From positions 2,233,001-2,297,000 of the forward strand of contig NZ_JPOL01000002.1 in the NCBI RefSeq assembly GCF_000733945.1: a DNA stretch of 64,000 nt, in the 5' to 3' direction. Shown one piece after another: positions 6,721 through 55,964 of the stretch. The notes under the pieces were generated by a model that had not been told where the DNA came from, did no database searches, and saw only the letters and a list, made by a program, of their open reading frames with translations. The stretch is from Flavimarina sp. Hel_I_48. Lineage in GTDB: Bacteria; Bacteroidota; Bacteroidia; Flavobacteriales; Flavobacteriaceae. A program made the position numbers and the translations under genes. Position 1 is the stretch's first letter, and each line of letters opens with the position of its first letter.

Positions 6721-7186
6721 TATCTCCTTTCTTTTTAGAATCTTTATATGGTTTTAAAATTTAAAGCCAAATAATCGTATTTAAATGAATTAAAAGACTT
6801 TTAAAAACTAATTTTCTGGCACTCTGTATTATTACTTTACGCTAATTTCAGCTTTATGATAACTTTAGTTTAGAGAGTTTTATTTTTTGAAATTGAAAAT
6901 ATTAACACCTTCTTTAAAGGTTTTAAAACCATGATTTCAATTATTCAATACTGGCTATAGTATTTATTTACGGTTCTCTTTTTTACATATTATTCATTTT
7001 TAGAACTTATCACACTTAAGTGTAAAGTTTCAGAAGTAGAATTGAAATAATGCTTTCTGAGTAAATGAATATTTTGATAAGATAATTTACTAATTGCATA
7101 ATACCTGGAAAATAGTGCCGTGTTTTTGAATATGTACTATCATCTTACGGTATTCATTGACTAATATTGCGAACTAAAATCGTAGT
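6721..7186. other. Intergenic region right of the IS element
   Basis: About 465 bases of strongly AT-rich DNA without a supportable gene, RNA or strong hairpin. I looked for the other half of a gene split by the IS and saw none on either strand. A weak -7-like sequence TAATATTG (7162-7169) precedes the phosphoesterase start by 17 bases. Confidence 0.6.
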
Positions 7187-8416: not shown

Positions 8417-8496
8417 CACGTCCTTCGTAAATTTAATCTGAGTATAAATCTTAAAATAAATCGTTTAAATAACAAATTATTACGATAATCGGTATT

Positions 8497-8526
8497 TTTT
8501 TGTAAATTGGTATAAGTTTACAAAAA
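8497..8526. promoter_or_regulatory. 10-bp perfect inverted repeat before the secreted-protein gene
   Basis: TTTTTGTAAA (8497-8506) and TTTACAAAAA (8517-8526) are perfect inverted repeats separated by 10 bases, ending 8 bases before the start codon at 8535. The spacing of about two helical turns between arm centres suits a dimeric regulator. The site also overlaps a TAAGTTTA (8513-8520), one base off the -7 consensus. Confidence 0.4.
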
Positions 8527-8534
8527 TAAATGTT

Positions 8535-9944
8535 ATGCGTTTTTTTATAAAGTTTTTGACTTTGGCCTTCTTCTTGAGTACACCTAATTTGGCCATAAGT
8601 CAAATAGGAATAGGTACCCAGAGCCCTGATGCCTCTGCATTAATGGATATAAGTTCACAGAATCAAGGTATTCTTACCCCGCGAATGACCACGTTGCAAC
8701 GGGAAGCAATTGACAATCCCGCAAATGGTTTACTTGTTTTTGATACTGATTTAAATGCTTTTCAGTATTACAACAGTTCTTTAGGAACATGGGAGAAAAT
8801 GAGTAGCGAAAAAAGGAATAATTATGTACTGGTTAAAAGTCAGGCAGATTTTCCCATGCCATCAGGGGGGGTGATCACTCTTGATGCCGGGACTTATTAT
8901 GAAATAAACGGTCTTATAACACTTTCTTCACCCATTGATATCAACAACGCTTATATCTCAGGACTTGATTCGACTGAAGATGTTTTATCTTATCCTGGAG
9001 GAACAATTTTTCAAGGAAATAATGGAGGAAGTATACGTAATGTGACCTTAACAGGTGGAAGGGCTTTTAATATTACTGGATCAGGATCCAGTAACAGTAT
9101 AATGCTGTTACAAAATTGTATTATTACTAATATGACTATAAGTGTAGGTGGCATATCTGGTATAGGTGTATATTTTAGCAGTGTAATTCAATTTCTAAAC
9201 AACGCAGATGGAATAACCTATAGCAACATTGGTAAATTGTTATTAAACAATCAAGGTTGGTTCACTAATAATGCGGGAACCTACGAAACATTGAAAGGTG
9301 CGTTCAACCAAGTAGAAAAAATAGGAGGATTTTCTAATGTGGAAGGATCTGCCGTGGGTTTTGATGTAAGTTCTAATCCCACAGTTAAAACAGGCGTAGT
9401 TCTAAGTAGGGTTTTTTCGGGATCAGGTATTTATGTAAAGGGATATACATCTGGTAGTTACCCGGGGTATAACTTTACAAATAACTGGACTATTAATTGT
9501 CCTGGTCTTCCAGAAGAGTCTGATGTTAGGGCAACGGCAAATTTGTATTACTCAAACTCTAACATTGTAGTTTTGTCAAACAATACACCTAGGAAGTTAC
9601 CTGTAACTACAGTGAGTGCACGCAATTTTAGAACTACTAGTCCAGAATCGAATCAAGTTGTTTATAAAGGGTCGAAGCCACGTTCTTTAAATATTTATAC
9701 CTCAATTTCATTTACTGCCATAGCAGGAATGCGCTTAACTTTTTCACTTTATAAAAACGGTAGCCAAGTAATTGGTACGAACACTGTCTATGATGTACCT
9801 CAAACAAACGGACGTTTAAGTTTGCCCATAATAGGTACTGTAATGGTTGATCCCGATGATAAGATAGAAGTTTGGGTTGAAAGAAATACAGGTAGCGGTG
9901 GTAATGAATTTCTTGTCACCAGCTATAACCTATTGGTTAATTAA
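8535..9944 (+). CDS. Secreted protein with fibre-like architecture, function unknown
   Basis: A 469-residue exported protein. A Sec signal peptide (about residues 1-22, ending AIS) is followed by a module common in Bacteroidota surface proteins (GIGTQSPDASALMDISS ... GILTPRMTTLQREAI ... GLLVFDTD ... FQYYNSS). The middle (about 110-330) is rich in Gly/Asn/Ser/Thr and short beta-prone repeats, like a beta-helix. The last ~110 residues look like a jelly-roll or receptor-binding domain (LTFSLYKNG ... DPDDKIEVWVERN). The overall plan recalls phage tail fibres and adhesins. No T9SS C-terminal sorting domain or enzyme motif is seen. A surface-binding or adhesive role is inference. Confidence 0.65.
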   Translation: MRFFIKFLTLAFFLSTPNLAISQIGIGTQSPDASALMDISSQNQGILTPRMTTLQREAIDNPANGLLVFDTDLNAFQYYNSSLGTWEKMSSEKRNNYVLVKSQADFPMPSGGVITLDAGTYYEINGLITLSSPIDINNAYISGLDSTEDVLSYPGGTIFQGNNGGSIRNVTLTGGRAFNITGSGSSNSIMLLQNCIITNMTISVGGISGIGVYFSSVIQFLNNADGITYSNIGKLLLNNQGWFTNNAGTYETLKGAFNQVEKIGGFSNVEGSAVGFDVSSNPTVKTGVVLSRVFSGSGIYVKGYTSGSYPGYNFTNNWTINCPGLPEESDVRATANLYYSNSNIVVLSNNTPRKLPVTTVSARNFRTTSPESNQVVYKGSKPRSLNIYTSISFTAIAGMRLTFSLYKNGSQVIGTNTVYDVPQTNGRLSLPIIGTVMVDPDDKIEVWVERNTGSGGNEFLVTSYNLLVN

Positions 9945-40145: not shown

Positions 40146-43100
40146 TTGAAACAAAACAACAATAAACAGGGTGTGGAACATATTGTACTATTGGGTGCTT
40201 CTGCCGGCGGCCTGAAGGCTTTCAAAGAGTTTCTGGAAGGGGTTAAAAAGAGTTTTTCTACGGCATATATTCTGTTACAACACCTAGACCCCAATCATAG
40301 AAGCATGCTCCCAGAGCTTTTGCAAAGTGTTTCTTCCATTCCTGTTGTTGAGATTTCAAATGGGCTTACACTAGAAAGTGATACGGTTTATGTACTGCCA
40401 AGTGATAAGGTGCCGCAACTTAATAAAGGTGTTTTCAGCTTACATAAAAAAGATAGTGTAACTGGATCTGCGCATTTAATTGATGACTTTTTTGAGATCA
40501 TGGCAAAAGAATATTCTTCAAAACTTATAGGTGTTATCCTATCTGGTACCGGTAGTGATGGAGCTAATGGCCTTAGGAAAATAAGGGAAAGAAAAGGGGT
40601 TACTTTTGTACAGGAACCCGCTTTGGCAGAGTGGTCTGATATGCCAGAATCTGCAATTAATAAAGGTGTGGTGGATTTTATACTTCCTGCGGCTGAAATC
40701 CCACAAAAGATCTACGAACTTAATATTACTGGTAATCTAGATATGGCTGGAAACGTCCCACAGATGCAGCAGGATTCTCAACAGGAAGAAGTACTCTATG
40801 AGATATTGCTGATCATGGAGCGTCGAAAGGGTACAGACTTCAGTAATTACAAAAAGAATACCATCTTACGACGCGTAAAGAGACGCCAGGTATTAAACGG
40901 CTATAATAATTTAAAGGATTATTTAGAGTATATGGAAGATAACAATGATGAAATTTCGGCATTGTTTGATGACTTTCTTATACCAGTGACAGAATTTTTT
41001 AGGGATCAGAGCACTTTCGTTTATTTGGAAAAGGAGATTTTTCCAAAATTACTGGCAAATAAAGATAGCAAAAACATGCTGCGTATTTGGATACCGGCAT
41101 GCAGTACCGGGCAGGAAGCCTATTCCATTGCCATTTGTATTCTGGATTATATAAAGAAAATAGGTAATGACAATCCGTACGGTGTGACAAATGGTAATGA
41201 AAAAGAATTCATTAAAATATTTGCTACAGACCTAAGCTCTAAAGCTATTCTAAGGGCGAGAAAAGGGATTTATCAAGAACCTGAGTTGAAAGGTGTAAGT
41301 AACGAGAGGCTGGAGGCCTATTTTAACAAGACTTCTTCTGGCTATGAAATTAATAAGGATATTAGGAGCATGTGTGTTTTTGCGGAACACGATTTTCTAA
41401 ATGATTATCCATTTGGTGCCATGCATCTGGTCAGTTGTAGAAATGCACTTATTTATTTAAATTCAGAACTTCAGGAAAAGGCGCTTACTAATTTTCATTA
41501 TGCCTTAGTGGAAAATGGTATGCTGCTTTTAGGTAATTCAGAAACTATAAATAGTGTTCCAGAGCTCTTTAACCGTATAAAGAGTGGTTATAAAATATAC
41601 AGGCGTAGCAGTGCAAAACGTAAAATCATAACACATCTGGCAAAAAATAAAAATCACAAATCCCTAAAACCTTCTACATCTGCGGCAGGAAAGAGCGTGT
41701 CACGGAATATAAAAGACTATGCTGAAGCACTTTTGTTAAAAGATTATGCTCCAGTTGCCATTGTGGTAAACAAAAACCTAAACCTTGTAACCATACATAG
41801 CAAAACCGGTAAATATTTAGAACATGCTCCTGGTACTGTTAGTCATAATATTCTGAAACTTGCCAAGGGAGACTTAGGATTTGAGATTAAACGAATCATA
41901 AGAAAATTCAATCTCGAGAAGGATAAAACTTTAGAAAGGAAAGGCATAAAATTATTAAGTGAAGGTAGAAGGTATTTAGTTGATATTTCGGTAAGCCGTA
42001 TAGAAGAAATGGATCCCCCTCATTTTCTTGTGGTTTTTAAAGATAAAGAAATTGAAGAGTTACCTGCGTTACATGAAGATAGTGATGAGAAGGAAATTTA
42101 TATCGCTTCATTAGAAAGAGAACTGGTGAGTTTAAAAGAGGAAATACTCGCAAATTTAGAAGAACATCAGGTAGCGGAAGAGGAATTACAAAGTGCCAAT
42201 GAGGAGCTCATGAGCAGTACCGAAGAGCTCCAAACCCTTAATGAAGAGCTTGAGACTAGTAAAGAAGAATTACAAAGCACGGTTGAAGAAATAACAATTG
42301 TAAACCAGGAGCTCAAAACCCTTAATAGCCTATTGATACAGGAGAAGAAATTTTCCGAAAGTATAATAAGGACCATTAGAAATCCTTTGTTAATTCTTAA
42401 TAAAGACTTTGAGGTAATAATGGCCAATAGGTCATTTTATAAGAATTTTAAAGTTGAGGAGTCCACTACATTAGGGAGACTCTTATTTCAATTGGGCAAT
42501 GGCCAGTGGGATATTCCAAAGCTGCATACATTACTCGAGTCTATCCTTCCCTTAAGAGGGGCATTTGCAGATTATGAAGTCACACACACGTTTGAGACAC
42601 TAGGCAAGCGCACCATACTGCTCAACGGGCAAATATTAAAAGAGGAAGCCGGTCAGGAAGAATCGATACTCCTTTCTTTTGAAGATGTTACAGAACGTAA
42701 CAAAGCGCAAAAAGACCTTAGGGAAAGTGTAAATATTCATAAAGAATTCATAGAAAGTTCTCCTTGGCCTATTGCTGTATTGAAGGGGGAAGAACACACG
42801 ATTGATATTGCAAATGAATCTATGTTGAGATCACTGCGCAAGAAGAGCAATATTATAGGCCAAACCTTCAAAAAAGCGATGCCGGAACTTGAAAAACAGG
42901 GTTTCTTTAAATTACTTGATCAAGTTTACAAAAGTGGTGTGGCGCACGAGGCTTTCAACACACCAGCATATTTTATAAATGAAAAGGGAGAGGAAGAACT
43001 GGACTATTTTGATTATATCTATCAGCCACAGCGTAACCTGGATGGTGATGTGGTAGGTGTTTCAATAATTACTACCGTGGTGACACAACAAGTGATTCTA

Positions 43101-44174
43101 AATGAAAAGATTAAAAAAAGCGAGAAACAATTCAGGCAGCTGGCAAACCATCTTCCTGAGCTAATCGTAAGTTATGATATCAAAGAAAAAACACGTTATT
43201 TTAATAAAAGCTTTCTGAAATTTACGGGAATGAATGTCAGGGAATTGAAAGAAAAAAGTTGGTATACTGCTGTACATCCTGATGACTATGAACGCATGAT
43301 GAGAGAGTATGGAAAAAAAATAGAAAATGCTGAAAATTTTGAAATGGAACTGCGTATCCGCAATGCAGATGGTGACTATCTCTGGTGCCTCAACAAAAAT
43401 CATTGTGTGACTGATCGCCAGGGCGAGCCCATAAGGTGGATAGGTACTAATATGGTGATACAGCGTATAAAGGACGAAGAAAAACGTAAGGAGGATTTTC
43501 TAAAACTCGTAAGCCATGAGCTAAAGACCCCAGTTACTTCCATTAAAGGGTATGTGCAAATGCTCCTTAGTATGATCTCAAAAGATCCAGGTAAATCTAT
43601 AAATGCACTACCTATTGAATCTTCACTTCTTAGGGTGGAAAATCAGATCACGCGTTTGACACATCTTATTTCAGAAATGTTGGACCTATCTAGGGTAGAG
43701 GAAAGCAAACTGGAACTCAATCTAGAAATGTTTGAACTTTGTGAACTTGTGGAAGAAACCATTCAAGATGTAAAACACTCAAACGGTATGGTGCCTATCG
43801 TTTCAGATTATATAGATGACTGGGAAGTCAGGGCAGATAAGGACCGCATAGGCCAAGTCCTCATTAATCTCATCACTAATGCCATAAAATATTCACCTAA
43901 ACAAAAAAACATAAAAGTAACGGTTTATAATAATGAACCTGGATTTATCGCAGTAAGCGTTAAGGATTCGGGTATAGGAATAGGTAAAGAGGACTTAAGC
44001 AAGATATTTGATCGGTTTTACCGTGTAAGTGGGGAGAATGAGGCTACCTACGATGGTTTTGGTATAGGTCTTTATCTTGCCAAAGAAATTTTGGATAGGC
44101 ACAAGGGAAAAATTAAAGTAGAGAGCACGCTAGGGGAAGGATCAAATTTCATTTTCAGCCTGCCTCTTGAATAA
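40146..44174 (+). CDS. CheB-CheR-PAS-histidine kinase fusion protein
   Basis: A 1342-residue cytoplasmic signalling protein beginning at a TTG. A CheB methylesterase domain (about 12-195) has its triad Ser in GASAGGLKAF, His in LQHLDPNH and Asp in GTGSDGANGL. A CheR methyltransferase domain (about 215-480) has WIPACSTGQEAYS and FATDLSSKAILRARKG. A Glu/Leu-rich coiled coil (about 665-735) follows, then three PAS-like regions (about 745-1110), a HisKA domain with LVSHELKTP (phospho-His near 1123), and an HATPase with NLITNAIKYS, DSGIGIG and GFGIGLYLAKEIL. A response regulator follows 6 bases later. No flagellar or classical chemotaxis genes are nearby, so its output is unknown. Confidence 0.9.
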   Translation: MKQNNNKQGVEHIVLLGASAGGLKAFKEFLEGVKKSFSTAYILLQHLDPNHRSMLPELLQSVSSIPVVEISNGLTLESDTVYVLPSDKVPQLNKGVFSLHKKDSVTGSAHLIDDFFEIMAKEYSSKLIGVILSGTGSDGANGLRKIRERKGVTFVQEPALAEWSDMPESAINKGVVDFILPAAEIPQKIYELNITGNLDMAGNVPQMQQDSQQEEVLYEILLIMERRKGTDFSNYKKNTILRRVKRRQVLNGYNNLKDYLEYMEDNNDEISALFDDFLIPVTEFFRDQSTFVYLEKEIFPKLLANKDSKNMLRIWIPACSTGQEAYSIAICILDYIKKIGNDNPYGVTNGNEKEFIKIFATDLSSKAILRARKGIYQEPELKGVSNERLEAYFNKTSSGYEINKDIRSMCVFAEHDFLNDYPFGAMHLVSCRNALIYLNSELQEKALTNFHYALVENGMLLLGNSETINSVPELFNRIKSGYKIYRRSSAKRKIITHLAKNKNHKSLKPSTSAAGKSVSRNIKDYAEALLLKDYAPVAIVVNKNLNLVTIHSKTGKYLEHAPGTVSHNILKLAKGDLGFEIKRIIRKFNLEKDKTLERKGIKLLSEGRRYLVDISVSRIEEMDPPHFLVVFKDKEIEELPALHEDSDEKEIYIASLERELVSLKEEILANLEEHQVAEEELQSANEELMSSTEELQTLNEELETSKEELQSTVEEITIVNQELKTLNSLLIQEKKFSESIIRTIRNPLLILNKDFEVIMANRSFYKNFKVEESTTLGRLLFQLGNGQWDIPKLHTLLESILPLRGAFADYEVTHTFETLGKRTILLNGQILKEEAGQEESILLSFEDVTERNKAQKDLRESVNIHKEFIESSPWPIAVLKGEEHTIDIANESMLRSLRKKSNIIGQTFKKAMPELEKQGFFKLLDQVYKSGVAHEAFNTPAYFINEKGEEELDYFDYIYQPQRNLDGDVVGVSIITTVVTQQVILNEKIKKSEKQFRQLANHLPELIVSYDIKEKTRYFNKSFLKFTGMNVRELKEKSWYTAVHPDDYERMMREYGKKIENAENFEMELRIRNADGDYLWCLNKNHCVTDRQGEPIRWIGTNMVIQRIKDEEKRKEDFLKLVSHELKTPVTSIKGYVQMLLSMISKDPGKSINALPIESSLLRVENQITRLTHLISEMLDLSRVEESKLELNLEMFELCELVEETIQDVKHSNGMVPIVSDYIDDWEVRADKDRIGQVLINLITNAIKYSPKQKNIKVTVYNNEPGFIAVSVKDSGIGIGKEDLSKIFDRFYRVSGENEATYDGFGIGLYLAKEILDRHKGKIKVESTLGEGSNFIFSLPLE

Positions 44175-44180
44175 TAAATT

Positions 44181-44537
44181 ATGAAGAAAATTTTAATCGT
44201 TGATGATGATCCCATTCTGGGCATTATGATTCAAGAAATGCTGGAGTGGAAAGGTTATGAAGTTACTTTATTGCGCTTACCACAAGAAACGGAACAAAAT
44301 ATTATAGAAAAACAAGTAGATCTTGTGATCCTTGATAAACTTATATCTGGTACAGATGGTATAAATGTCTGTAAATGGATTAGGATCAATGAAAAAACCA
44401 GAGATGTGCCTATAATAATGATAACGGCAATGCACGCTTCTAAACAGGCCTGTTTGGACGCAGGAGCTGATGAGTTTATAGCGAAGCCTTTTGAAATGGA
44501 AGATTTTTTATCAAAAGTTAAAAAGCTATTGGCTTAG
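44181..44537 (+). CDS. Single-domain response regulator
   Basis: A 118-residue receiver domain without an output domain. Acidic pocket residues lie in LIVDDDP (about 5-9), the phospho-acceptor Asp in VILDKLISGTDG (about residue 52), the conserved Thr in IIMITAMHA and Lys in FIAKPFEME. It starts 6 bases after the CheB-CheR-kinase stop, so it is almost certainly the partner. Lacking a DNA-binding or enzyme domain, it must act by protein contact or in a phosphorelay. Confidence 0.92.
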   Translation: MKKILIVDDDPILGIMIQEMLEWKGYEVTLLRLPQETEQNIIEKQVDLVILDKLISGTDGINVCKWIRINEKTRDVPIIMITAMHASKQACLDAGADEFIAKPFEMEDFLSKVKKLLA

Positions 44538-44609: not shown

Positions 44610-45629
44610 TTATTGCTCGTAGTATTCAAAAGCATCAACCAGATCTAAATAGACTCCATTAAAACCAGCATTGATTATTTTATTTAGATAAGAGTCTGAA
44701 TTTCCAAAAATGATTTTTTGCCAGTTAGGGTTCCAATATTTCACTTTATAATTGCCTTTCCAGTCGGGATTTTCATTATCTAACCAAGAAGGTGGGTTCT
44801 TCGTCCATTCCTCTTTCCAGTAATATCTGTAATCTTCAGCCTCACCTATGGACATGTAGGCAATTACCAAACGACTACCGCCATTTTTCTTGGTTTTTAA
44901 TTGGTTGATTTCAGTTGCTGTTAAACTGTTTCCGTCATTAAAGAAAAGGTCTAAAATTATAAGATCGTAGTTAGTATTTGCAATAGCTTCCAATAGTTCT
45001 TTTCTAGATTCAAATTCTTCAAGATTGATGAGGTATAAAAAGTTTTTGACCAGTCCTAAATTTTCTATGTTATTTGAATTTTCGGCATATATGGGAATTG
45101 GATGGTTAGGGATATTATTGAGTTCTCTGTGATCTGCGGCAAAAGAAACGTAATTTAAGTCGTTATTGTTTTGATAAGAATCATTCATTTTGGCTGGTGT
45201 AGATACATAATCGGTAACCAGGATTTTCTTTCCGTTATTTTTAGAAAGATTTAAAAATTCTTTTAGGTAAAGAGTCCTCTCTTTTGGAGTGACTTTATTG
45301 TCCTCGTCATAGCCATAAAATAGATCTTCTTGACCATGACCATCTATAGCGTTGATGTATGCTGATGTTATTTCCTCTGTGGTATTTTCAACTCCTGCAA
45401 TCAGTTCAATACCGTTTTGGGGAACGACCAGAAATGAAGAGTCCCTTTCTTTTGCGTAACCACTCATATTTTCAATAAAAGATCGCATTTCATCTCTGTA
45501 GGTAATATTTTCGGTTTCCATATCATCTTGTGAGTTTGAGGATGCACAAGAGATTAAAAAAGCGATTATAATCAAAAGGACGATAGAACAGTGGGTTGTT
45601 TTCATGGCGGTAAAAGTAATTTTTTTCAT
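44610..45629 (-). CDS. Lipoprotein with GH114-type (TM1410-like) glycoside hydrolase domain
   Basis: From the ATG at 45629 (MKKITFTAM) the product has 339 residues; ATG 45605 is a second possible start. A signal peptide ends in the lipobox FLISC, so it is a lipoprotein. The hydrolase part carries motifs of the GH114/TM1410 endo-alpha-1,4-polygalactosaminidase group: YDLIILDLFF, RLVIAYMSIGEAEDYRYYW, NPDWKGNYKVKYWNPNW and GFNGVYLDLVDAFEYYE. The C-terminus ends soon after that last motif, so it may lack the end of the barrel. It is divergent from the Pel-like operon, whose polymer (if GalN/GalNAc-rich) could be its substrate. That link is inference. Confidence 0.8.
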   Translation of the reverse strand: MKKITFTAMKTTHCSIVLLIIIAFLISCASSNSQDDMETENITYRDEMRSFIENMSGYAKERDSSFLVVPQNGIELIAGVENTTEEITSAYINAIDGHGQEDLFYGYDEDNKVTPKERTLYLKEFLNLSKNNGKKILVTDYVSTPAKMNDSYQNNNDLNYVSFAADHRELNNIPNHPIPIYAENSNNIENLGLVKNFLYLINLEEFESRKELLEAIANTNYDLIILDLFFNDGNSLTATEINQLKTKKNGGSRLVIAYMSIGEAEDYRYYWKEEWTKNPPSWLDNENPDWKGNYKVKYWNPNWQKIIFGNSDSYLNKIINAGFNGVYLDLVDAFEYYEQ

Positions 45630-45651
45630 ATAAATGTTGAGATTAAGTTTA

Positions 45652-45668
45652 CATAGAAAGTTTCTATG
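45652..45668. promoter_or_regulatory. Perfect palindrome (CATAGAAA-G-TTTCTATG) before the GH114 lipoprotein gene
   Basis: Two 8-bp arms around one G lie 23 bases upstream of the minus-strand start at 45629. The position and symmetry suit an operator, though no regulator gene is adjacent. A hairpin in the leader is the alternative. Confidence 0.35.
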
Positions 45669-45680
45669 ATATAGGAACAC

Positions 45681-46020
45681 AACATTTTAGAAGGGTTAAA
45701 AACTTAGTGGGATGCTTCAAAAAGAATTTTTTTTATACGGCTCTGTTTTGGGATTTTGTGCTTTTCCTAAATCCGCTTTATACTGGATGTTTCTAGAAAG
45801 ATAATTTATTTACGCAATTATGAAAATTATGAAAATTCGATTTTGGCAAAGCAATAATGAGTATTTTGAATAATTTTTTTGTATATGAACGATATTATTA
45901 CATATAAATTTGTTAATTTATGTTAATTGCATATATTTGTAATCCTACACAAAGGTTGTTTTTAGTTGAGTCAAGTGGATTATAATAATATAGATTCTTT
46001 TCTTAACATAAATTTTCTAT
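45681..46020. other. Divergent control region of the Pel-like locus
   Basis: No gene. It holds the plus-strand promoter at 45910-45939 and about 80 nt of leader before pelF. A short direct repeat ATGAAAATT occurs twice near 45820-45840. No clear minus-strand promoter was found for the GH114 lipoprotein. Confidence 0.55.
45910..45939 (+). promoter_or_regulatory. Promoter of the Pel-like operon (TTG-N19-TATATTTG)
   Basis: TTG at 45910-45912, a 19-base spacer and TATATTTG at 45932-45939 match the Bacteroidota sigma-A consensus in both elements and spacing. Predicted transcription starts near 45945, about 75-95 bases before the first gene. Confidence 0.7.
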
Positions 46021-46041
46021 GTGAGTTTAACCCCAACAATA

Positions 46042-47568
46042 ATGTTTCCTGATAAAAAATCCATTCTGCTTATTCTTGAAGGTACCTATCCCTTCAATGG
46101 GGGAGGTGTATCAACCTGGGCTCATATTTTATGCAACCGCGTTTCCTGCGTAGATTACAAACTTTATTCAATAAACTCTGATTTTGAGGATAAACCGCGT
46201 TATGAACTAAGCAAAAACATTAGCGAGGTTCTTCAAGTACCGCTTTGGACCCCTGATGAACCCTATGATTATAGAAGCTATGGTGAGGAATATTATAAAA
46301 CAGTAGGCAAAAAAGAGTGGACAACGGGGGCCGTTGTGAAGCGTAAGTTCGTTCCTATTTTTAAAGATCTTTTAAAAATTATTTACAGTGATGAACCGAA
46401 CATGCCAGAACTGGATGCTATTTTTAAAAAACTTTGGCTCTATTTTGAACATTATGATTATAAGGAGACCATACGTAATGAGTTTGTGTGGATCACCTAT
46501 AGGGACACCGTTTCAAAATTAATAGTAGGTGAGCGCAACCCAGATGCTTCACTTATAGATTTAACCATTGGCTTAAGGTGGATCTACCGTTTTTTAATTC
46601 CTTTGGCCATTGTAAATGTACCAAAGGTTGATATTGCCCATTTGACGCTGAGTGGTTTTGTTATAATACCTGCCCTAATTGCTAATTATAAGTATGGCAC
46701 CAAGATCATGCTTACGGAGCACGGGGTTTTTATCAGGGAAAGATTACTCGCAATAAACAATTCAGAATATCCTTTTTTTCTTAAAAATCTTTTGATAAAA
46801 TTTTCAGAAGCCATGGCCAGGTTGGTTTATTATAAATCTGAAAAAATTATTTCTGTGAATAATTTTAATAGGAAATGGGAAATCATGTACGGGGCAGATC
46901 CTAGAAAGATCCAGGTTGTTTATAATGGTATAGATACAGATCTATTTAAGCCCAAGGCTAAACCAGATCATCTATCTGCCATTCCTACGGTAGTTGCGGC
47001 AGCGCGTATCTTTGATCTCAAAGATATCGTTACCATGATCCAATCGTGCGCTGTGGTCATAAAGGAAATTCCTAACGTACAATATCTAATTTATGGTGAT
47101 GATCAGGCAGTTCCAGAATATACCGAAGAATGCCTAATCCTTATTAAGGAACTTGATCTGGAACGCAATTTTAAATTTATGGGCCCACGCCCAGATCCTC
47201 ATAATATTTTTCCTGAAGGCGATATCTCTATTTTAACTTCCATTTCAGAAGGTTTTCCCTATACCGTATTGGAGTCTATGAGCTGCGGCGTGCCGGTTAT
47301 AGCCACAGATGTGGGTGGTGTTAGTGAAGCTCTAGGTGAGGGTTGTGGTTTTGCCTGCAAGCCCAAGGATCCCGAAGAAATAGGTGCGCGCGTAATTGAG
47401 GTGCTTAAAAACGTTGATTTAAGAGAGAGAATGAGCAAAAATGCCAGACGGCGGGTGCTCGAAAATTTTACTATAGATACGTTTATAAACCAGTATGAAG
47501 AGGTTTATGAGTCAGTACTAAAAGGTACAATTAAAGAAAATTACGAACTAGAAAAAGTATTACTCTAA
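46042..47568 (+). CDS. pelF: PelF-like GT4 glycosyltransferase
   Basis: A 508-residue cytosolic glycosyltransferase from ATG 46042 (MFPDKKSILLILEG); a GTG at 46021 would add 7 residues. The N-terminus LILEGTYPFNGGGVSTWAH is the signature of PelF/DUF3492 proteins, and HGVFIRERL follows in the middle. The C-terminal GT4 part has the donor-site region FMGPRPDPHNIFPEGDISIL, the E-x7-E element SEGFPYTVLESM and CGVPVIATDVGGVSEAL. Length matches P. aeruginosa PelF (about 507). PelF polymerises the Pel chain from UDP-GalNAc; the same donor here is inference. It is first in a five-gene operon. Confidence 0.88.
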   Translation: MFPDKKSILLILEGTYPFNGGGVSTWAHILCNRVSCVDYKLYSINSDFEDKPRYELSKNISEVLQVPLWTPDEPYDYRSYGEEYYKTVGKKEWTTGAVVKRKFVPIFKDLLKIIYSDEPNMPELDAIFKKLWLYFEHYDYKETIRNEFVWITYRDTVSKLIVGERNPDASLIDLTIGLRWIYRFLIPLAIVNVPKVDIAHLTLSGFVIIPALIANYKYGTKIMLTEHGVFIRERLLAINNSEYPFFLKNLLIKFSEAMARLVYYKSEKIISVNNFNRKWEIMYGADPRKIQVVYNGIDTDLFKPKAKPDHLSAIPTVVAAARIFDLKDIVTMIQSCAVVIKEIPNVQYLIYGDDQAVPEYTEECLILIKELDLERNFKFMGPRPDPHNIFPEGDISILTSISEGFPYTVLESMSCGVPVIATDVGGVSEALGEGCGFACKPKDPEEIGARVIEVLKNVDLRERMSKNARRRVLENFTIDTFINQYEEVYESVLKGTIKENYELEKVLL

Positions 47569-47569
47569 T

Positions 47570-49186
47570 TTGACCTCCCACCACCTCAAAGCAGTAGCAA
47601 AACTCATTGTGGCCGTAAAAGAGCGCAATGGTAAGCCTATTAACGTAAATGTAGTTGCGGCCTCTATAGAGTCTTTTGGCATTCGGGATATGGATGTTAA
47701 AGAAGATTATGGTTTTGAAGATATCTCAGATCTTGCCCGTTATATTTACAAAAGCTTGGATTTCAAAGCTTTTGCTAACCTGAAAAATAACAAACAGCGG
47801 GTTGCAGAATTTGAAAATAGGAAAAAATTAGCGCTCACGGATTATATTACGGCCAGAAATACAAAGCGTTTTGTACGTGATTATACTGCCGGGCTCATTC
47901 ATCTTTTTCCTGTTTTTCTTCAAGTTGTTGGCATCGTGCTCTTCGGTTTTTCATTGTGGACCTTTTCAAAGTTCAACAACTTACAATCTACCGCAGTTGT
48001 ATTAGGTGTGATAATTGGTTTTGTTGTAACGGGCGGTTTTGTACAGGTTGTGGGTAAGCAGGTCTCCTTTTACTGGTATAATAAAGATTTTGTTATGGCA
48101 AAACATTCAATAATTAATATTATTAGGAATGGAGTATTGACAATGCTCGCTGTTTTTGGACTTATTGCCATCTTAAACATTGTTCTTCCGCTTTATCCAT
48201 TTTCTTTTATACTTATAACATTTATATACGCATTTTTAATAGGTTTTTTATTGCTTGTACTTTCCCCATTATATGCAATAAAACAAAGGTGGGTGCTTTC
48301 CGTAAGTATTTTAATAGGGAGCCTTACCGCATTTTTCTTTCACTTTTATACACCCTTATACATATATATCGTTCATTGGGTAGGGATTTTGACATCCTGT
48401 TGTTGCTCCGTTATATTCCTTTATTTTTTCCTAAAACATACCTTGGGAAATCATAAAGGTCTAGCGAATGCAGCACCTAAATTAATGCTTTCGGTATACC
48501 GTAATTTCAACTATTTTTTCTACGGTATTTTACTTTTTATTTTTGTTTTTCTGGATCGTATTTTGGCCTGGTCGTCTACCTTGAACCGTAATATACCCTA
48601 TGTGGTATATTATGAAAAGAACTACGAAATAGGTATGGACCTTGCGATCCTGATGTTTTTTCTTATGGGTGGTGTTCTGGAATATAGCATATCTTCTTAC
48701 AACCGCCATATGGATTTTCATCAGCTTAAAACCAAATACTTTGAGTATCATGAGTTTAATAAAAAACTGATGAAAATGTATGTAAAACACCTGCGAATAT
48801 TTTTTTTTAGCGCTTCTGTTATCGCATTTTTTCTCTATTGTATTATAACAAAACCCTGGGGGTACCAGGCGGGTTTTGACGAGTCATTATTGCCACTTAG
48901 TATTAAGGTTTGCGTCATAGGTGGAGCAGGTTATCTTTTTTTGACTTTGGGAATGCTTAATGTACTCTACGCCTACACCCTTGGTCAACATAGAAAACCA
49001 CTGGTGGCCATAATAATCGCACTTGCATGTAATCTGGTTGTGGGTATACTGCTCAGCAGATTAATTTCATATGAATATAGTGTGGTAGGCATGCTCGTGG
49101 GATCTATTGTTTTTGCCTTTATTACCACGCTAGATACTTATAGATTTTTTAAAAACCTGGATTACTACTATTATGCCGCTTATTAA
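47570..49186 (+). CDS. pelG: PelG-like polysaccharide transporter
   Basis: A 538-residue membrane protein with about twelve hydrophobic segments from residue ~105 onward, starting at a TTG one base after pelF. Features such as AGLIHLFPVFLQVVG, SISSYNRHMDFHQLKTKYFEYHEFNKKL (cytoplasmic loop) and the helices after it resemble PelG, the MOP-superfamily inner-membrane exporter of Pel. About 105 N-terminal soluble residues, charged and helical, have no counterpart I know in the ~456-residue Pseudomonas protein. Its end overlaps the next gene by 14 bases. Identification rests on both sequence character and position next to PelF. Confidence 0.8.
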   Translation: MTSHHLKAVAKLIVAVKERNGKPINVNVVAASIESFGIRDMDVKEDYGFEDISDLARYIYKSLDFKAFANLKNNKQRVAEFENRKKLALTDYITARNTKRFVRDYTAGLIHLFPVFLQVVGIVLFGFSLWTFSKFNNLQSTAVVLGVIIGFVVTGGFVQVVGKQVSFYWYNKDFVMAKHSIINIIRNGVLTMLAVFGLIAILNIVLPLYPFSFILITFIYAFLIGFLLLVLSPLYAIKQRWVLSVSILIGSLTAFFFHFYTPLYIYIVHWVGILTSCCCSVIFLYFFLKHTLGNHKGLANAAPKLMLSVYRNFNYFFYGILLFIFVFLDRILAWSSTLNRNIPYVVYYEKNYEIGMDLAILMFFLMGGVLEYSISSYNRHMDFHQLKTKYFEYHEFNKKLMKMYVKHLRIFFFSASVIAFFLYCIITKPWGYQAGFDESLLPLSIKVCVIGGAGYLFLTLGMLNVLYAYTLGQHRKPLVAIIIALACNLVVGILLSRLISYEYSVVGMLVGSIVFAFITTLDTYRFFKNLDYYYYAAY

Positions 49187-49982
49187 TTTTTTATTTATTT
49201 TTTTAGCTTGCTCCATGGCAAAATCACTTAATTCCCAGACTTTGGTTCGCCAAAAAGTACTTTTCAACTACGGGGATTTCTATCCAGAGGATGTTGCCGG
49301 TTATGATTATGTGATATTGGAAAGTGCTCATTTTAGCAGTGCTGATATTGCAGTCCTAAAAAAGAACAACGGTCTCGTACTTGCCTATGTTAGCCTGGGG
49401 GAAGTAAATGAAGGCGCTTTACATTACGATGAGATTAAGCAATATACTTTTGGAAAAAACAAACTTTGGGACAGTCACTTTCTTGATATTAAGAATGAGG
49501 AAACAGCCGCTATTTTGCTCGATATATTTGAGTTGAACATCGTGGAAAAGAATTTTGACGGTATGTTTTTGGACAATATAGATAATTATACAATTCACGG
49601 GCCTACTCCAGTCCGTAAAGAAGCGCTTATTGAATTCCTGTCAAAGGCGAAAATTAAATTTCCAGAAGCGCATTTTATGCAAAATGCAGGGGTACTGATC
49701 TTAAAAGATACCAGTCCTTACATCAATTCGTTGGCGATAGAGTCTGTTGCGACCGATTATGATTTTGAAAAATCCAAGTATAAGTTGAGAAAACTTGAAC
49801 AATTCTCCTCCATTTTAAATGAACTGGAGCAGGCGCATCAAGATTATGATCTACCCATAATATTAATAGAATATGCCGACACAAAAAAACTTTATAACGA
49901 GGTGATAGACCGTATAGCATATAAATGCTGGCCTTTTTTTATTGGTTCAATAGAACTTCAATCCATAACAGAATTCAAATAA
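49173..49982 (+). CDS. PelA hydrolase-like (GH114-type) exported protein
   Basis: A 269-residue protein with an N-terminal hydrophobic signal (about 1-22) and a TIM-barrel hydrolase of the GH114/PelA N-terminal type: YDYVILESAHFS, GLVLAYVSLGEVNEG (about 65-80), KNFDGMFLDNIDNYT (about 126-140), PEAHFMQNAGVLIL and LAIESVATDY. In P. aeruginosa this domain is the N-terminal part of PelA and cleaves Pel; here it is a separate gene. The deacetylase half occurs two genes downstream. The start overlaps pelG by 14 bases. It probably trims polymer in the periplasm. Confidence 0.82.
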   Translation: MPLINFLFIFLACSMAKSLNSQTLVRQKVLFNYGDFYPEDVAGYDYVILESAHFSSADIAVLKKNNGLVLAYVSLGEVNEGALHYDEIKQYTFGKNKLWDSHFLDIKNEETAAILLDIFELNIVEKNFDGMFLDNIDNYTIHGPTPVRKEALIEFLSKAKIKFPEAHFMQNAGVLILKDTSPYINSLAIESVATDYDFEKSKYKLRKLEQFSSILNELEQAHQDYDLPIILIEYADTKKLYNEVIDRIAYKCWPFFIGSIELQSITEFK

Positions 49983-49995
49983 GACCTGGTCTTCT

Positions 49996-51984
49996 ATGAA
50001 CGCAGCCCCATCCATGTTTTTAGGACCTTTAAGACTTAGCATCTTTTTCTTTTTGATCTTTGTGCTATACCGTATTGCGTCTCTAAAAATCTCAAATCAG
50101 AAGGGGCTTAACTTCTTTTTTCCAAGATATTGTTTGTTGCTTTCTATTAGCGTGATCACTGGCTTTCTACTCACGCTTCTCAACGCTTTTGATCTAATGG
50201 TGATCTTTTTGATCCTATTTTTTATCATTCTAATGGTCTTTATGAACCTCAAAAGAAAGAAAGCCCTTCGTAAACAATTCAATAGAATATATACCAGGAT
50301 TATTCTTTATACGGTAATCAAATTTGAAAAGGACGAGTTTTTTATTGATAGGGATAATGTGAACAAACTGAAAAAGACAGACAGCTTCTCAGAACTTTCA
50401 GGTCTCAATAGAAAGTGGCAATATGCGCTAGCTACAGTGATCCTTGTTGTGACCTATTCCTCAAGGTACTTTTTTTATGAATACGATAGTTTCACACTTT
50501 CAGAATCTTGGTATTACGAACTTTCCCTTATCAAGGAAATTTCTGCTCAGCGGTGGTTTTTTCATTCGGGCAGCATGATGGGAGATCATGTACTGATTAA
50601 TATTTATGGAAAATTAGCTCACCTAAGCGATGCTATTGCCCTTCAAAGTTTTGGCCTTATAGAAATTTCTATACTCGCGCTGGTATTGTACTGGGTCTCT
50701 TATAAAATTACAGGAAGGCATGGTCCAGGTTGCATTGCGGCATTTTCTTTTGGTTTCCTCTATGCTTTTTTGCCTTTGAATATTGATCAGTTACTTCAAC
50801 ATAAATCTATTTTTTTAGCGTTGACACTGGCCATTCCCACTATGGTATTTTCTATATATCCTAAGGCACTTCGGTTAAAACACAGCATCTATTTACGGTG
50901 GATGACTTATTTCTTTAGTGCTGTTTTATTGATCGATCTGTACGTAGGTCTTTATATAATACCTCCATTTTTAGTACTTACCGGTCTATTCAACTATAAA
51001 TATAGAAAACCCTATGTGCTGCGGGGCCTTCTTGCATATGTTATTGCCTTCGCATGTGTGGGAATCATATATTATGCTGCTTCAATTATTAAGGACCAGA
51101 ACTTACGGGATTTTGTGATCTCAAATTTATTTTCATTCAATAGTTATACCTACACTCCACAACTCATTATTCCTTTTGATTCGCTCATGCACTATTATCA
51201 GGGAGCAGCTGTGCTGTTGCTGATAATAAGCTTTGTAAGATATACTTTGAGTCCAGAAAAGTGGACGGGAGTCATCATTTTTATGGTTTATTTCAATCTG
51301 CTTTTTAACCTGTACTGGCTAGATGATTACTTTCTTGACTATGATTTATTTACCCAGACCATCTCTGTATTTTTACCATTGTTTTTTGGATTAGGTTTTT
51401 ACATTCTGTCCTCTTTGATCCCCACAATTAAAAAAAGTGTAAGGTTTATTACGGGGATGGATTTTGCGATTGCAACGGCCTTTGTTTTCTTGATTGGTTT
51501 TTTTACTAAAGATTATCTCACCGTACTACCGGTAACCGGGTACAGGTTGCAAGACCAGATCTTTGATGCATACATTGATATTGAATCTTCAAGATTGCCC
51601 TACTCCTACACGGTGGTCAATTCTAATGCTAATTCCATTCTGAGCAGGGGGAGTCATTATTATTTGAGCTACAATGTTTTTAATGCAGATTACCTTGATC
51701 GCGATGCGCGGTTCAATAAATTCAAAAAAAATACGGAGTATCTCAGGAAGCATACAGAGCTGATACTGCCGCAAAGTGTCCTTGTATTTATTTATAATGA
51801 TGAGGCCCTTAAAAATAAATCGTATGGCCTATATGAAGACCAGCAAACTTTGACAAGAAAACAATTGGCAAGACTAAAAGAGCGCGGGAGAAGCGTAGAA
51901 CTTGTTTATAAAAAACCATTACTGGAAGTCTATGAAATAATAAATAGACCTCGCTCCAGTAAAATCAATGATCTAATATTTTGA
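49996..51984 (+). CDS. Unrecognised polytopic membrane protein of the Pel-like locus
   Basis: A 662-residue protein. About twelve to thirteen hydrophobic segments fill residues 10-80 and 145-520, split by a charged cytoplasmic stretch (about 80-140, KRKKALRKQF). The last ~140 residues form a soluble domain (YTVVNSNANSILSRGSHYYLSY ... LLEVYEIINRP). A helix bundle followed by a soluble C-terminal domain recalls GT-C glycosyltransferases, but I see no family motif. It is not similar to PelD (no GAF/GGDEF) and lacks PelE-type TPRs. It lies between the PelA-hydrolase-like gene and the deacetylase-barrel gene, overlapping the latter by 4 bases, so a role in synthesis or export of the same polymer is likely. 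Confidence 0.7.
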   Translation: MNAAPSMFLGPLRLSIFFFLIFVLYRIASLKISNQKGLNFFFPRYCLLLSISVITGFLLTLLNAFDLMVIFLILFFIILMVFMNLKRKKALRKQFNRIYTRIILYTVIKFEKDEFFIDRDNVNKLKKTDSFSELSGLNRKWQYALATVILVVTYSSRYFFYEYDSFTLSESWYYELSLIKEISAQRWFFHSGSMMGDHVLINIYGKLAHLSDAIALQSFGLIEISILALVLYWVSYKITGRHGPGCIAAFSFGFLYAFLPLNIDQLLQHKSIFLALTLAIPTMVFSIYPKALRLKHSIYLRWMTYFFSAVLLIDLYVGLYIIPPFLVLTGLFNYKYRKPYVLRGLLAYVIAFACVGIIYYAASIIKDQNLRDFVISNLFSFNSYTYTPQLIIPFDSLMHYYQGAAVLLLIISFVRYTLSPEKWTGVIIFMVYFNLLFNLYWLDDYFLDYDLFTQTISVFLPLFFGLGFYILSSLIPTIKKSVRFITGMDFAIATAFVFLIGFFTKDYLTVLPVTGYRLQDQIFDAYIDIESSRLPYSYTVVNSNANSILSRGSHYYLSYNVFNADYLDRDARFNKFKKNTEYLRKHTELILPQSVLVFIYNDEALKNKSYGLYEDQQTLTRKQLARLKERGRSVELVYKKPLLEVYEIINRPRSSKINDLIF

Positions 51985-54900
51985 GCAAAACCCATTCAAA
52001 CATACTGTTCATTTTATTCATCTATGTTCTGGGCGCTTGCTTTCTTTCATGTCAAAAAGAGGAGCGGGAAGATAAGATTGATAAAAGTAGCCCAAGGGTA
52101 ATCTATGCGCCAGAGAGTCAACAACCTCTTGTTGCTTTTGTGCGCGATAGTACAAATAATCAAAATCTACAGCTTGAAGGGCAAATAAGAAAACCTCTTG
52201 GCTATAGTAAGATACCATACCAACACATAGATCTAAATGAATTGAATAAAAAAGCCAGCATCAAAAATTCAGTAAGGGTCCTGGTTGTACAGGATGTTTC
52301 AATATTAAGTGATGTGGCTATAACGGCTGTCATAAAATTTGTAGTGGAAGGAGGGACGCTTTTTTTACCACAGGGAAATACAGACCGGAGTTTTGGTTTT
52401 TTTGCAGGTGTAAAAAAGGATGCTACTTATAAAATTGATTTTGATGCCATAGGTCTGGATTTTAAAGTGGCTCTTGTGCCTGATTTTAAAGGGAAAACCA
52501 TAAAGAATGGACAGCGGCATTATGGCCTTGAAGCTTCTAATTTTGATGAAAATATTGAATTTATCGCAACTTCATCATCAAATCCTGCATACCCGCTCAT
52601 CATAAAAAATAAAATGGGCGTGGGCAAGGTTATTGCTTTTAATACACAGTTACAGCCAGAAAAAAGAAACCGCGGAATCTATTTTGGCTGTATGCTTTAC
52701 GGTCTTAATGGGATTCCCTATCCGGTTGCCAATGTAAGTAGTATTTTCCTGGATGATTTTCCAGCGCCATTGTATAACTTAAAAATGGAACCGGTGGCCT
52801 CTGAGATGAATGTCACACAAGCTGCCTTTTATACAGATTATTGGTGGCCAGATTTACTCAAGCTGGCCAAGGATGAAAATTTGGAATATACGACCTATGT
52901 TTGTTTTGATTATCGTAATCTAACAGAGCCCCCATTCAACTTTAAAGAGTGGGAAATTGCCAGCACTAATAAGGGCAACCATACTGTTTCGGCACCAGAC
53001 TGGCTTATGCAAGAGGTACGCAACAGTAAGCACGAACTTGGATTTCATGGCTACAATCACGTATCGCTTATTAAAAAAGACTGGAACAATCCTTCTTTTA
53101 TGGGCCTTGGTCTGCGGGCGGTAAAGAAACGGTGGGAGGCAAGGGCTTATGGTAATTTGCCGGTCTCTTATGTCCCACCGTCAAACGATATTGATAGTAT
53201 TGGGATAGTAGCCCTCGCCTATAATATGCCCTCTCTAAAATATAACAGTAGCCTGTATCATGGTACTTTTGAAGAAGGTGGGGAGCGAGAATTTGATCCT
53301 GAGCCTTTTGCCCCCCAACTATTCAATTACCCACGTGTAACGAGTGGATATATAATGAACAATTCCCGTCAATTTTCCCAGCAGTCCCTTTACCTTTATA
53401 CCGGTATTTGGACACATTTTATACATGCTGATGATATTTACCAGATACCGTCAAACGATACTGATAGCGTTGATGATGAGTATGGCTTGAGAAATATACA
53501 TGGTTATGGCTGGCACATTTCGGAAAACGGCTCGCCAGGTCTTTTGCCCAGGTTTAGGGAGTATCTCAAACATATTAGGGAATTATTTCCACTCTCTCGC
53601 TATCTCACAGTAGATAAAGCTGCACCCATTACTAGAAGTTGGAGGGAAGCCACCTTTCAGCACTCCATAAAAAAGAACTCCTATACGGTTAAAACCACTT
53701 CAAAAACAGAAAAAAACCAACCGTTCTATTGGTTTTATTATGCCGAAGAAAATGATATTAAAAACATTGAAAACAAATTAGAATCAAAAGATTATAGGTT
53801 TCATAAGATCCCTTTACTTGATGGAGCATTGTTTAATATCGAAACAAACTCAGGCTCATTAACTTTACCAGTCACTCAACACAAAGAGGAAAAACTATTG
53901 ACTTATGTTGATTTTAAAGCGTATAAAGGCTTTTTAGATGAGGAAGGGTCGCCACAACAAGATACAGAGACCCAGATAACCAACCTCAAAATACAGCTTG
54001 CGGGATCAGCAATTGTTTCAGAAAAATCCTGGTTTTCTTTATTTAAATATTTGGGCTGGCAAAGTCGGGAAAAAGAAATCTGGCCTTTGCTTGAAAATAC
54101 GTACAACAAGTTGAAATCAAATAGCCTGGTGGTTTTGGCAGACAAATTCATTGCCCACAGCGATTACCCAGATATGGAAACAAGAAAAAGGTGGATGCAA
54201 CGTCAGATAGCAAATGATCCTCAGGACCTTGAGCTCAAAATGCGTTATGTCTCTTACTTTGGCGAAGACCAGAATGTGCAAATCCAAATGGCTGAACTCA
54301 TAAATATTTTTGAAAATGAAAAGAGTATAGAAAATAGGACAAGCACCGTTGACCTTCTAATTAAAAAATATCCCGAAACAGCCAGCTCGTTTCTCTCAAA
54401 AATTGATGCTGAAAATTTAGATTATAACAAAGCAGCAAAAAACATCATGTGGTTTTTCGCAGATCAGGAAAATTACTTAAAAGCAATTGCCTGGTCCAAG
54501 AAAGTGGAAACTATAGACGTAGAAACGGTAGATAACTGGCGCTTACAAACCGGGGATTATGAATTTTTAAAGGAAAAGGATTTTCCTAAATACATCAATT
54601 ACCTATTGGGCTATAATCCAAAAAAGGCAACAGCCGCCCTTATTGATAAAACGCCATGTATGCCGGTATTGCTCCCACAGGCCACTGCTATTGCATACGA
54701 ATTTGGCAATCAGGGAAGTTATAGAAAAGCAATTGCCTGGTCTAAGTGCGCGGTAGATTTTCCGCTGGTTAATCAATTGCAGTGGTATTATGGGCTCAAG
54801 GATACTAAAGCAATAGATGCTATCTACACGGCGCATATTCAAAATAATATTCCCACTGAAGCTTTGAAAGGTTTCATGGCCGATTATTATATAGGGCGCG

Positions 54901-55964
54901 CCCAATTTGTAAATGCCTGGAAAATGGCAGAATCCCTGAAAAATTCAGACAAGCGGGAGACATTGCGCTTACAGTACAACAAAGATGTGGTTTTTGCCGA
55001 AAGCGAAACTCAAAAGCTGCTCATGAATGAAAATCCCGATTTTTTCTATCCTGAAACCTTGGCTAGAATTAAAAAAGACCTGCGCATTGCAACTGGTGAT
55101 TTTTTAGAACTTGAAAATAGGGTGATCAGCGATCGCTTTGAGCCCACATCTTTGGGCAATGCCATTTTTTATGGTATTAGGGATTCGCGTTTAAATGAAC
55201 ATAAATTTGGTATAAGTCAGTTTAGGGCTTATCCGTTGATCGGTAATTTTGATGCTCGTATAAACAAGCCGCACGACCTTTACGGCATTGCCTATGAATT
55301 TAAAGAACTGCCGAAACCAAACACGTTCAGTTATGGGGCAGGGGGCAAGATTGAATTTGATGACGAGGGTAAAACATATTACCACATAAATACATCCGCG
55401 GCAATTACAAAAGACAGTCTTTATGCCTCTGTACAGATCTTTAGGCGCCCGGCGATCACAGGCCCAGCGTACAGTTTGAATATATATCAAACGCAGCTCA
55501 ATATGTACTCAGAACTGCGTATGAAGAAGAATTATCAGGCCATTTTTTACCTGGAAAGCAATCAGTTTGACGATCAGGGCGCGCTGGATGCTACCGCACT
55601 GATCAATTTTGGGAAAAATTTTAAATTAAACCAAAGCGTCAAAATTAAGGGCTACGCCGAAATTTCAGGAATGCTGGGCAATACAGACCAGCGGCAGGGT
55701 TACCCATATTGGACCATTAATGAACGGCTATATGGTGGCCTTGGGGTGAGCTACAATTACGCTAACAATAGCAATAAGCTACAGTTTAGCTTAGATGCCT
55801 CCTCTTTTCTTGATACATTTTCAGAACAGTTTCAGCGCTACCGCGGGCAGTTGAACGTACCGCTTTTTAACTATTTGCACCTGGAGGCAAATGCCGAATT
55901 CTTCACGTTGAAAGACTTTTATTCCAATAGTTTTGGCCTTGGTCTACGGTATTATTTAAATTAA
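51981..55964 (+). CDS. Lipoprotein fusion: PelA-type deacetylase, helical repeats and beta-barrel (PelB-like)
   Basis: A 1327-residue protein starting at TTG 51981, overlapping the previous stop. A lipoprotein signal (CFLSCQ, Cys about residue 24) leads to a Rossmann-like region (about 40-240) and a DUF2194/CE4-like deacetylase: metal/base Asp pair in IFLDDFPAP (about 255), zinc His pair in HELGFHGYNHVS (about 351) and YVPPSNDID. A linker and a helical-repeat region follow (about 690-1040), with near-duplicate YLKAIAWSK (about 832) and YRKAIAWSK (about 913). The last ~275 residues are alternating beta-strands ending in LGLRYYLN, like an outer-membrane barrel. This combines functions split between PelA and PelB in Pseudomonas: deacetylate, guide and export the polymer. 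Confidence 0.8.
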   Translation: MSKTHSNILFILFIYVLGACFLSCQKEEREDKIDKSSPRVIYAPESQQPLVAFVRDSTNNQNLQLEGQIRKPLGYSKIPYQHIDLNELNKKASIKNSVRVLVVQDVSILSDVAITAVIKFVVEGGTLFLPQGNTDRSFGFFAGVKKDATYKIDFDAIGLDFKVALVPDFKGKTIKNGQRHYGLEASNFDENIEFIATSSSNPAYPLIIKNKMGVGKVIAFNTQLQPEKRNRGIYFGCMLYGLNGIPYPVANVSSIFLDDFPAPLYNLKMEPVASEMNVTQAAFYTDYWWPDLLKLAKDENLEYTTYVCFDYRNLTEPPFNFKEWEIASTNKGNHTVSAPDWLMQEVRNSKHELGFHGYNHVSLIKKDWNNPSFMGLGLRAVKKRWEARAYGNLPVSYVPPSNDIDSIGIVALAYNMPSLKYNSSLYHGTFEEGGEREFDPEPFAPQLFNYPRVTSGYIMNNSRQFSQQSLYLYTGIWTHFIHADDIYQIPSNDTDSVDDEYGLRNIHGYGWHISENGSPGLLPRFREYLKHIRELFPLSRYLTVDKAAPITRSWREATFQHSIKKNSYTVKTTSKTEKNQPFYWFYYAEENDIKNIENKLESKDYRFHKIPLLDGALFNIETNSGSLTLPVTQHKEEKLLTYVDFKAYKGFLDEEGSPQQDTETQITNLKIQLAGSAIVSEKSWFSLFKYLGWQSREKEIWPLLENTYNKLKSNSLVVLADKFIAHSDYPDMETRKRWMQRQIANDPQDLELKMRYVSYFGEDQNVQIQMAELINIFENEKSIENRTSTVDLLIKKYPETASSFLSKIDAENLDYNKAAKNIMWFFADQENYLKAIAWSKKVETIDVETVDNWRLQTGDYEFLKEKDFPKYINYLLGYNPKKATAALIDKTPCMPVLLPQATAIAYEFGNQGSYRKAIAWSKCAVDFPLVNQLQWYYGLKDTKAIDAIYTAHIQNNIPTEALKGFMADYYIGRAQFVNAWKMAESLKNSDKRETLRLQYNKDVVFAESETQKLLMNENPDFFYPETLARIKKDLRIATGDFLELENRVISDRFEPTSLGNAIFYGIRDSRLNEHKFGISQFRAYPLIGNFDARINKPHDLYGIAYEFKELPKPNTFSYGAGGKIEFDDEGKTYYHINTSAAITKDSLYASVQIFRRPAITGPAYSLNIYQTQLNMYSELRMKKNYQAIFYLESNQFDDQGALDATALINFGKNFKLNQSVKIKGYAEISGMLGNTDQRQGYPYWTINERLYGGLGVSYNYANNSNKLQFSLDASSFLDTFSEQFQRYRGQLNVPLFNYLHLEANAEFFTLKDFYSNSFGLGLRYYLN

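Follow-up and report, generated by a model that had tools for sequence, protein, structure and literature searches.

Known Pel systems and the Flavimarina locus

Pel exopolysaccharide systems have been described for Proteobacteria and Gram-positive bacteria, and in the reports considered they are mostly under the control of cyclic diguanylate (c-di-GMP) via PelD. In this study, we analysed a five-gene locus in a stretch of 64,000 nucleotides from the marine flavobacterium Flavimarina sp. Hel_I_48 (contig NZ_JPOL01000002.1, positions 2,233,001 to 2,297,000 of the forward strand), called the window here; the genome comprises 4.14 Mb in 4 contigs. The five open reading frames (ORFs) lie on the plus strand of the window at 46021-55964 and encode a PelF glycosyltransferase, a PelG-like transporter, a PelA-type hydrolase, a membrane protein with a GT-C fold, and a fusion of a deacetylase with an outer-membrane pore. 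The initial annotation had described five packed genes, and every ORF was found at its place, with successive gaps of +1, −14, +13, and −4 bases. Close homologues carry Leeuwenhoekiella names. The locus is likely to represent a form of the Pel system that is conserved within Bacteroidota, and the cluster probably makes and exports a sticky Pel-like polymer. The variant is marked by a one-chain deacetylase-secretin and a GT-C-fold partner, with no detectable c-di-GMP control in the host.

The pelABCDEFG operon of Pseudomonas aeruginosa shares with this locus PelF, a PelG-like transporter, a PelA-type hydrolase, and a helical-repeat pore with a 16-stranded barrel. However, its PelA deacetylase belongs to CE21, whereas the deacetylase of the window is a DUF2194 protein in one chain with the pore, and no PelC, PelD, or PelE was detected in the locus. 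An ordinary operon of the P. aeruginosa type was ruled out by the PelD model PF16963, which matched 0 of the 296 genomes in an even sample of the phylum, and by the hhalign comparison with Gram-negative Pel proteins.

The Gram-positive arrangement pelDEADAFG of Bacillus cereus ATCC 10987 (PMC7112168, PMC13254593) is similar in having, beside PelF and a PelG-type transporter, a DUF2194-type deacetylase of its own (PelADA). Like the window locus, it also has a hydrolase gene transcribed divergently beside the operon (BCE_5582; PMC7112168). Compared with this operon, the window locus has no detected PelD or PelE, pelF and pelG come first, the deacetylase is fused to a solenoid-barrel pore and has a lipoprotein-like signal where PelADA has a membrane helix, and a GT-C-fold protein is added. 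Streptococcal Pel operons (PMC7112168) retain a PelD with a membrane part and a GAF domain and without a GGDEF domain, and on this ground c-di-GMP-independent control has been proposed for them; in the window locus, no PelD was found.

In addition, in a plasmid locus of Thermus brockianus (L135, 6909-13282) the genes of a deacetylase and of GH114-type hydrolases are clustered with that of PelF, as in the window. Its deacetylase matches Agd3 models, and no match to the GT-C protein was found in it at E 0.01. L135 is another PelF-based arrangement. Among the matches listed in a literature search, no title or abstract described the Bacteroidota arrangement, and a GT-C-fold partner was met in no described Pel system.

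Five proteins in a conserved order

Genes 1, 3, and 5 had been annotated initially as encoding a PelF-like glycosyltransferase, a PelA-hydrolase-like protein, and a fusion of a deacetylase with repeats and a barrel, and profile searches and structure models agreed with all three. Gene 1 (46021..47568, plus strand; GTG start, with an ATG at 46042) encodes PelF of the GT4 type. It scored 176.9 bits against NF038011 (cut-off 100), matched DUF3492 as well, and reached an hhalign probability of 100 against three Gram-negative PelF proteins; E410 and E418 are kept in 71/71 aligned sequences. Several related loci (f26 and f37) have, 5′ of pelF, one more GT4 gene that is PelF-like but shorter (1708-2895 in L119, with equivalents in the others).

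Gene 2 (47570..49186, plus strand) encodes the PelG-like transporter, in which PF16933 aligns with residues 107-535. PF16933 is found in many of its orthologues, and NCBI gives some of them the name PelG; the L117 orthologue exceeds the cut-off with 29.9 bits, and the L119 orthologue has no match. The N-terminal extension (residues 1 to about 106, 47570-47887) is conserved in 21 aligned orthologues, whereas three Gram-negative PelG proteins are just 455-457 residues long. No second PelG match was found in a search of the host's own genome.

Gene 3 (49173..49982, plus strand) has a signal-like N-terminus and overlaps pelG by 14 bases. Its product matched the PelA structure 5tcb at E 2e-14 and also GH114, and the family aligned with the hydrolase part of PelA at an hhalign probability of 99.6. 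D134 and E190 are kept in 76/76 sequences, and the Glu that is replaced by Ala in the PelA entry 5tsy is likewise retained in 76/76 homologues.

Gene 5 (51981..55964, plus strand) encodes a lipoprotein-like signal, a DUF2194 domain (residues 55-598, 52143..53774), a TPR-like helical solenoid (residues 645-1038, 53913..55094; mean predicted local distance difference test score (pLDDT) 89.7), and a 16-stranded outer-membrane barrel (residues 1041-1325, 55101..55955). In the model, the helical repeats and the 16 strands follow DUF2194 as in a pore of the PelB type. Among barrel folds, entry 4y25 (which we take to be PgaA), BcsC, and PelB scored above every other barrel, and the structural matches to secretins reach only the last part of the solenoid. 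The barrel is therefore of the type of the exopolysaccharide secretins BcsC and PgaA, but it is fused to a deacetylase. An unrelated porin was ruled out, since these secretins stood more than 6 Z units over the next barrel listed.

The DUF2194 domain scored 204 bits in the family search and matched the PelADA structure 9zau at E 7.7e-35, so it belongs with the PelADA/DUF2194 deacetylases that Gram-positive Pel operons are known to encode (PMC13254593). The residues D258, D259, H356, H360, R452, H482, and D485 are kept in 77/77 sequences; these catalytic positions were taken from that report and transferred by hand via the alignment. By hhalign, the deacetylase did not match three Gram-negative PelA proteins. 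The gene product can be seen as a single-polypeptide form of the complex in which PelA and PelB couple deacetylation to export, and the fusion agrees with the PelA-PelB interaction reported in P. aeruginosa (PMC12022489).

The initial annotation had called the locus rearranged, with a split PelA. These words suggest a broken P. aeruginosa operon and were corrected to a fixed architecture. A contig scan with the gene 5 alignment gave 388 relatives in all, and a neighbourhood survey of the best 80 loci showed the same five genes (pelF, pelG, hydrolase, GT-C gene, and fusion gene) in the same order on one strand in all 70 complete loci, from Flavobacteriaceae and some other Bacteroidota; the remaining 10 of the 80 start inside the locus at a contig end. 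Thus, the arrangement is not due to chance. The hosts include Salegentibacter, Christiangramia, Mesonia, Maribacter, Flavobacterium, Nonlabens, Tenacibaculum, and Roseivirga. Because the order differs from pelABCDEFG, a scrambled and decaying operon without function could be imagined. However, the five window ORFs are open, pelG and the hydrolase gene overlap by exactly 14 bases in 58 of the 70 complete loci, and the catalytic residues are invariant. This conservation argues so strongly against decay that we give a decaying operon almost no weight; one related genome (G147) has a TAG inside pelG.

In the sample of 296 genomes, part of the first-look candidates were scored, mostly 4 or 5 per genome. 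DUF2194 was over the cut-off in 24 genomes (37 matched at E 0.001) and PelF in 23; the GT-C protein was detected in 23 and this type of PelG in 24. The PelF model matched all 296 genomes at E 0.001, because GT4 enzymes are common. The same 23 genomes have all four markers. Thus, within this sample, the GT-C protein occurs only with the locus and always with it; one of its matches (G299) covers positions 168-365 only. Two genomes were left out of the 23, namely G252, with a partial DUF2194 match of 30.8 bits and no match in its locus to the GT-C protein, PelG, or gene 5, and G250, with a weak PelG match.

The polymer and its proposed route

Based on these identities, PelF would polymerise the chain in the cytoplasm from a uridine diphosphate (UDP) sugar, most likely UDP-N-acetylgalactosamine (UDP-GalNAc), and PelG would carry it across the inner membrane. 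The DUF2194 domain would then take off acetyl groups and the hydrolase would trim the chain, which might leave by way of the solenoid and the 16-stranded barrel that the same polypeptide provides. This polypeptide probably has a lipid anchor at its N-terminus. The GT-C-fold protein would be an obligate inner-membrane partner where PelD and PelE were not found. The product would be a cationic polymer of galactosamine and GalNAc, as had been proposed initially.

Several results weigh against reading the locus as a Pel system. First, the window PelG scored only 25 bits against PF16933, below the cut-off of 29, and no hhalign match to three Gram-negative PelG proteins was found; the earlier assignment of gene 2 to PelG is less certain than the others and draws on its orthologues. 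Second, the barrel and solenoid had no hhalign sequence match to Gram-negative PelB, so that this link is by fold alone. Third, the lipobox-like pattern in gene 5 homologues is loose (66/77). Fourth, UDP-GalNAc is a predicted substrate of PelF; a galE-family gene over the cut-off in the host's own genome speaks for it, but such genes are common. Fifth, the locus is patchy, with the GT-C protein in 3 of 60 near relatives and in 2 of 13 genomes of the genus, including the host; one genome of this comparison (G012) is 81% complete. Sixth, the missing PelD and the undetected PelE and PelC stand against a plain Pel assignment. The silence of PF16963 is weak when taken alone, because this model is reported to miss the PelD of B. 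cereus (PMC7112168); it was positive in 3/3 plasmid records with annotated Pel operons, which served as positive controls.

The charge of the barrel also gives no help. A crude count from the hydropathy of alternate strand positions placed 14 basic and 14 acidic residues on the inward face, and over 64 rows the lining had a mean charge of −0.9 (range −9 to 2), that is, it is neutral, in contrast to the PelB interior, which has been described as negative. Barrel charge was dropped as support for a cationic product. This neutral lining, together with a tree of 28 hand-chosen rows in which PelF of these loci is widely separated from the Gram-negative PelF proteins, would fit a different amino-sugar polymer without GalNAc, for which PelF and DUF2194 would have drifted in their sugar use. 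However, the deacetylase and the hydrolase keep their active-site residues, and relatives of them are reported to act on alpha-1,4-GalNAc polymers (PelADA is reported to deacetylate alpha-1,4-GalNAc oligomers; PMC13254593). We regard a polymer without GalNAc as unlikely and retain the Pel-like GalNAc product as the preferred one.

The GT-C-fold partner and control of the locus

Gene 4 (49996..51984, plus strand) had been called an unrecognised membrane protein. This is true for sequence, as the family profile searches gave no match and hhalign gave none against Gram-negative Pel proteins, but the structure model revealed a GT-C fold (core at about residues 133-510, nucleotides 50392-51525) followed by a C-terminal domain. 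The fold matches include GT-C glycosyltransferases (STT3/PglB, DPY19, and ArnT). Compared with these enzymes, gene 4 has no sequence family match and has further N-terminal helices, which are modelled with low confidence (pLDDT of the whole model 63.6, middling), and its outer-loop Asp is not universal. One entry on a 3.7-kb contig (P0006) appears to join the GT-C gene with pelF, probably through an assembly artefact.

GT-C glycosyltransferases have an acidic residue in the first outer loop, and we take D164 to be the corresponding catalytic Asp. The protein could be an active enzyme that, with polyprenyl-phosphate sugars as donors, attaches a second sugar, a branch, or a lipid end to the chain in the periplasm and yields a modified Pel, and we hold this to be possible, at somewhat less than an even chance. 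D164 is invariant in a 16-row alignment and present in 79 of 90 sequences, and other residues are kept as strictly. However, it is replaced in the other 11 (Asn in 9, His in 1, Ser in 1), and these 11 make up the whole of families f26, f37, and f44; in addition, the catalytic role of D164 is our assumption and the model is of middling confidence.

The GT-C protein might instead be a non-catalytic pseudo-transferase that serves as a scaffold in the inner membrane and holds PelF at PelG in place of PelD and PelE. No PelD was found and PelE was undetected in the locus, yet the GT-C protein is present in all 23 genomes with the locus; furthermore, Asp164 is lost in one group of loci, and the fold matches include chains of the glycosylphosphatidylinositol (GPI) transamidase, presumably a GT-C relative without catalytic activity. 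But the strict retention of D164 in the 16 rows and in the 79 sequences outside f26, f37, and f44, with other residues equally strict, fits an active site. The scaffold role is also tentative, and we would not put it at even odds.

As regards control, the initial annotation had seen no PelD, PelC, or PelE and had proposed a control not based on PelD. The five families of locus proteins gave no hhalign match with three PelE or PelC proteins (best probability 9.9, gene 5 against PelE), in a test that also missed PelG, and the family search found no GAF or GGDEF domain in the five locus proteins. No GGDEF domain was found in the host's own genome, which fits such a control. Among 60 relatives, 2 had a GGDEF match at E 0.001, one of them over the cut-off, and no GGDEF was found in 22 of the 25 locus-bearing genomes. 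The locus could serve as a natural test of synthase-dependent polymer secretion without c-di-GMP.

Between pelG and the hydrolase gene, the f26 and f37 loci encode an HD_5-domain protein about 520-540 residues long (6115-7737 in L119, with equivalents in L121-L129); Pfam found no GAF domain in it, and its middle part is GAF-like by eye. In the f44 locus (L117), where no gene could be recognised as that of the hydrolase, a GAF-SpoIIE and a GAF-HD protein (5962-9538) are encoded 3′ of the GT-C gene and 5′ of the last one. An HD protein match was found in 20 of the 25 genomes with the locus, and the five without it are all five of the window's own family. The HD-GYP signature reads HHEWVDGWGYP in L117 and has GTP, GSP, or GMP for GYP in the other 10 of 11 aligned sequences. 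The L117 genome has a GGDEF match; the altered sequences come mostly from genomes without GGDEF, and the L126 and L127 genomes have six GGDEF matches each.

Loss of the outer-loop Asp and the HD protein coincide in 11/11 loci (L117, L119, and L121-L129) and in 0 of the 79 elsewhere. In the tree, nine PelF proteins with an HD-protein neighbour lie on one side of a branch with support of 88/79, below the 95/80 mark. The coincidence may reflect one event in one branch, and these results suggest that one branch has a changed nucleotide-sensing partner, which Flavobacteriaceae lack. A wider proposal, which we find rather doubtful, is that Bacteroidota evolved a Pel branch of their own in which an obligate GT-C transferase would act on the polymer in the periplasm to give a new decorated or lipid-ended Pel, one polypeptide would deacetylate and export it, and control would have moved away from PelD, the GAF/GGDEF receptor: some families would use an HD-GYP-like protein in its stead, and Flavobacteriaceae would have no nucleotide receptor that can be recognised.

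A conserved regulator in the flanks was ruled out, as no neighbour cluster occurred in more than 28 of the 70 loci; the largest fits the accessory hydrolase and the others are unannotated. This hydrolase (44610..45680, minus strand), which the initial annotation had not included, is divergent from the locus and of the GH114/TM1410 type (TIGR01370, 198 bits, cut-off 181). Its halves are circularly permuted, as query residues 233-356 align with TM1410 chain residues 23-140 and residues 64-173 with 152-248, in swapped order. A homologue with the same permuted order lies near 29 of the 80 loci.

A single consensus promoter had also been claimed. Two overlapping matches to the Bacteroidetes-type promoter (TTTG-n-TANNTTTG) do stand 5′ of gene 1, at 45878-45912 and at 45909-45939 (plus strand), but this is weak on its own, because 10 such matches occur across the window, where 4.2 would be expected. 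Upstream, a very large gene (40146-44537, plus strand) encodes a CheB-CheR-PAS-histidine kinase-like fusion, as read by eye from its translation, and a response-regulator-like gene follows; nothing ties this fusion to the five-gene locus. Finally, in L119 (14550-15192), a DUF2752 protein and a small TM2 protein are encoded after the last gene.

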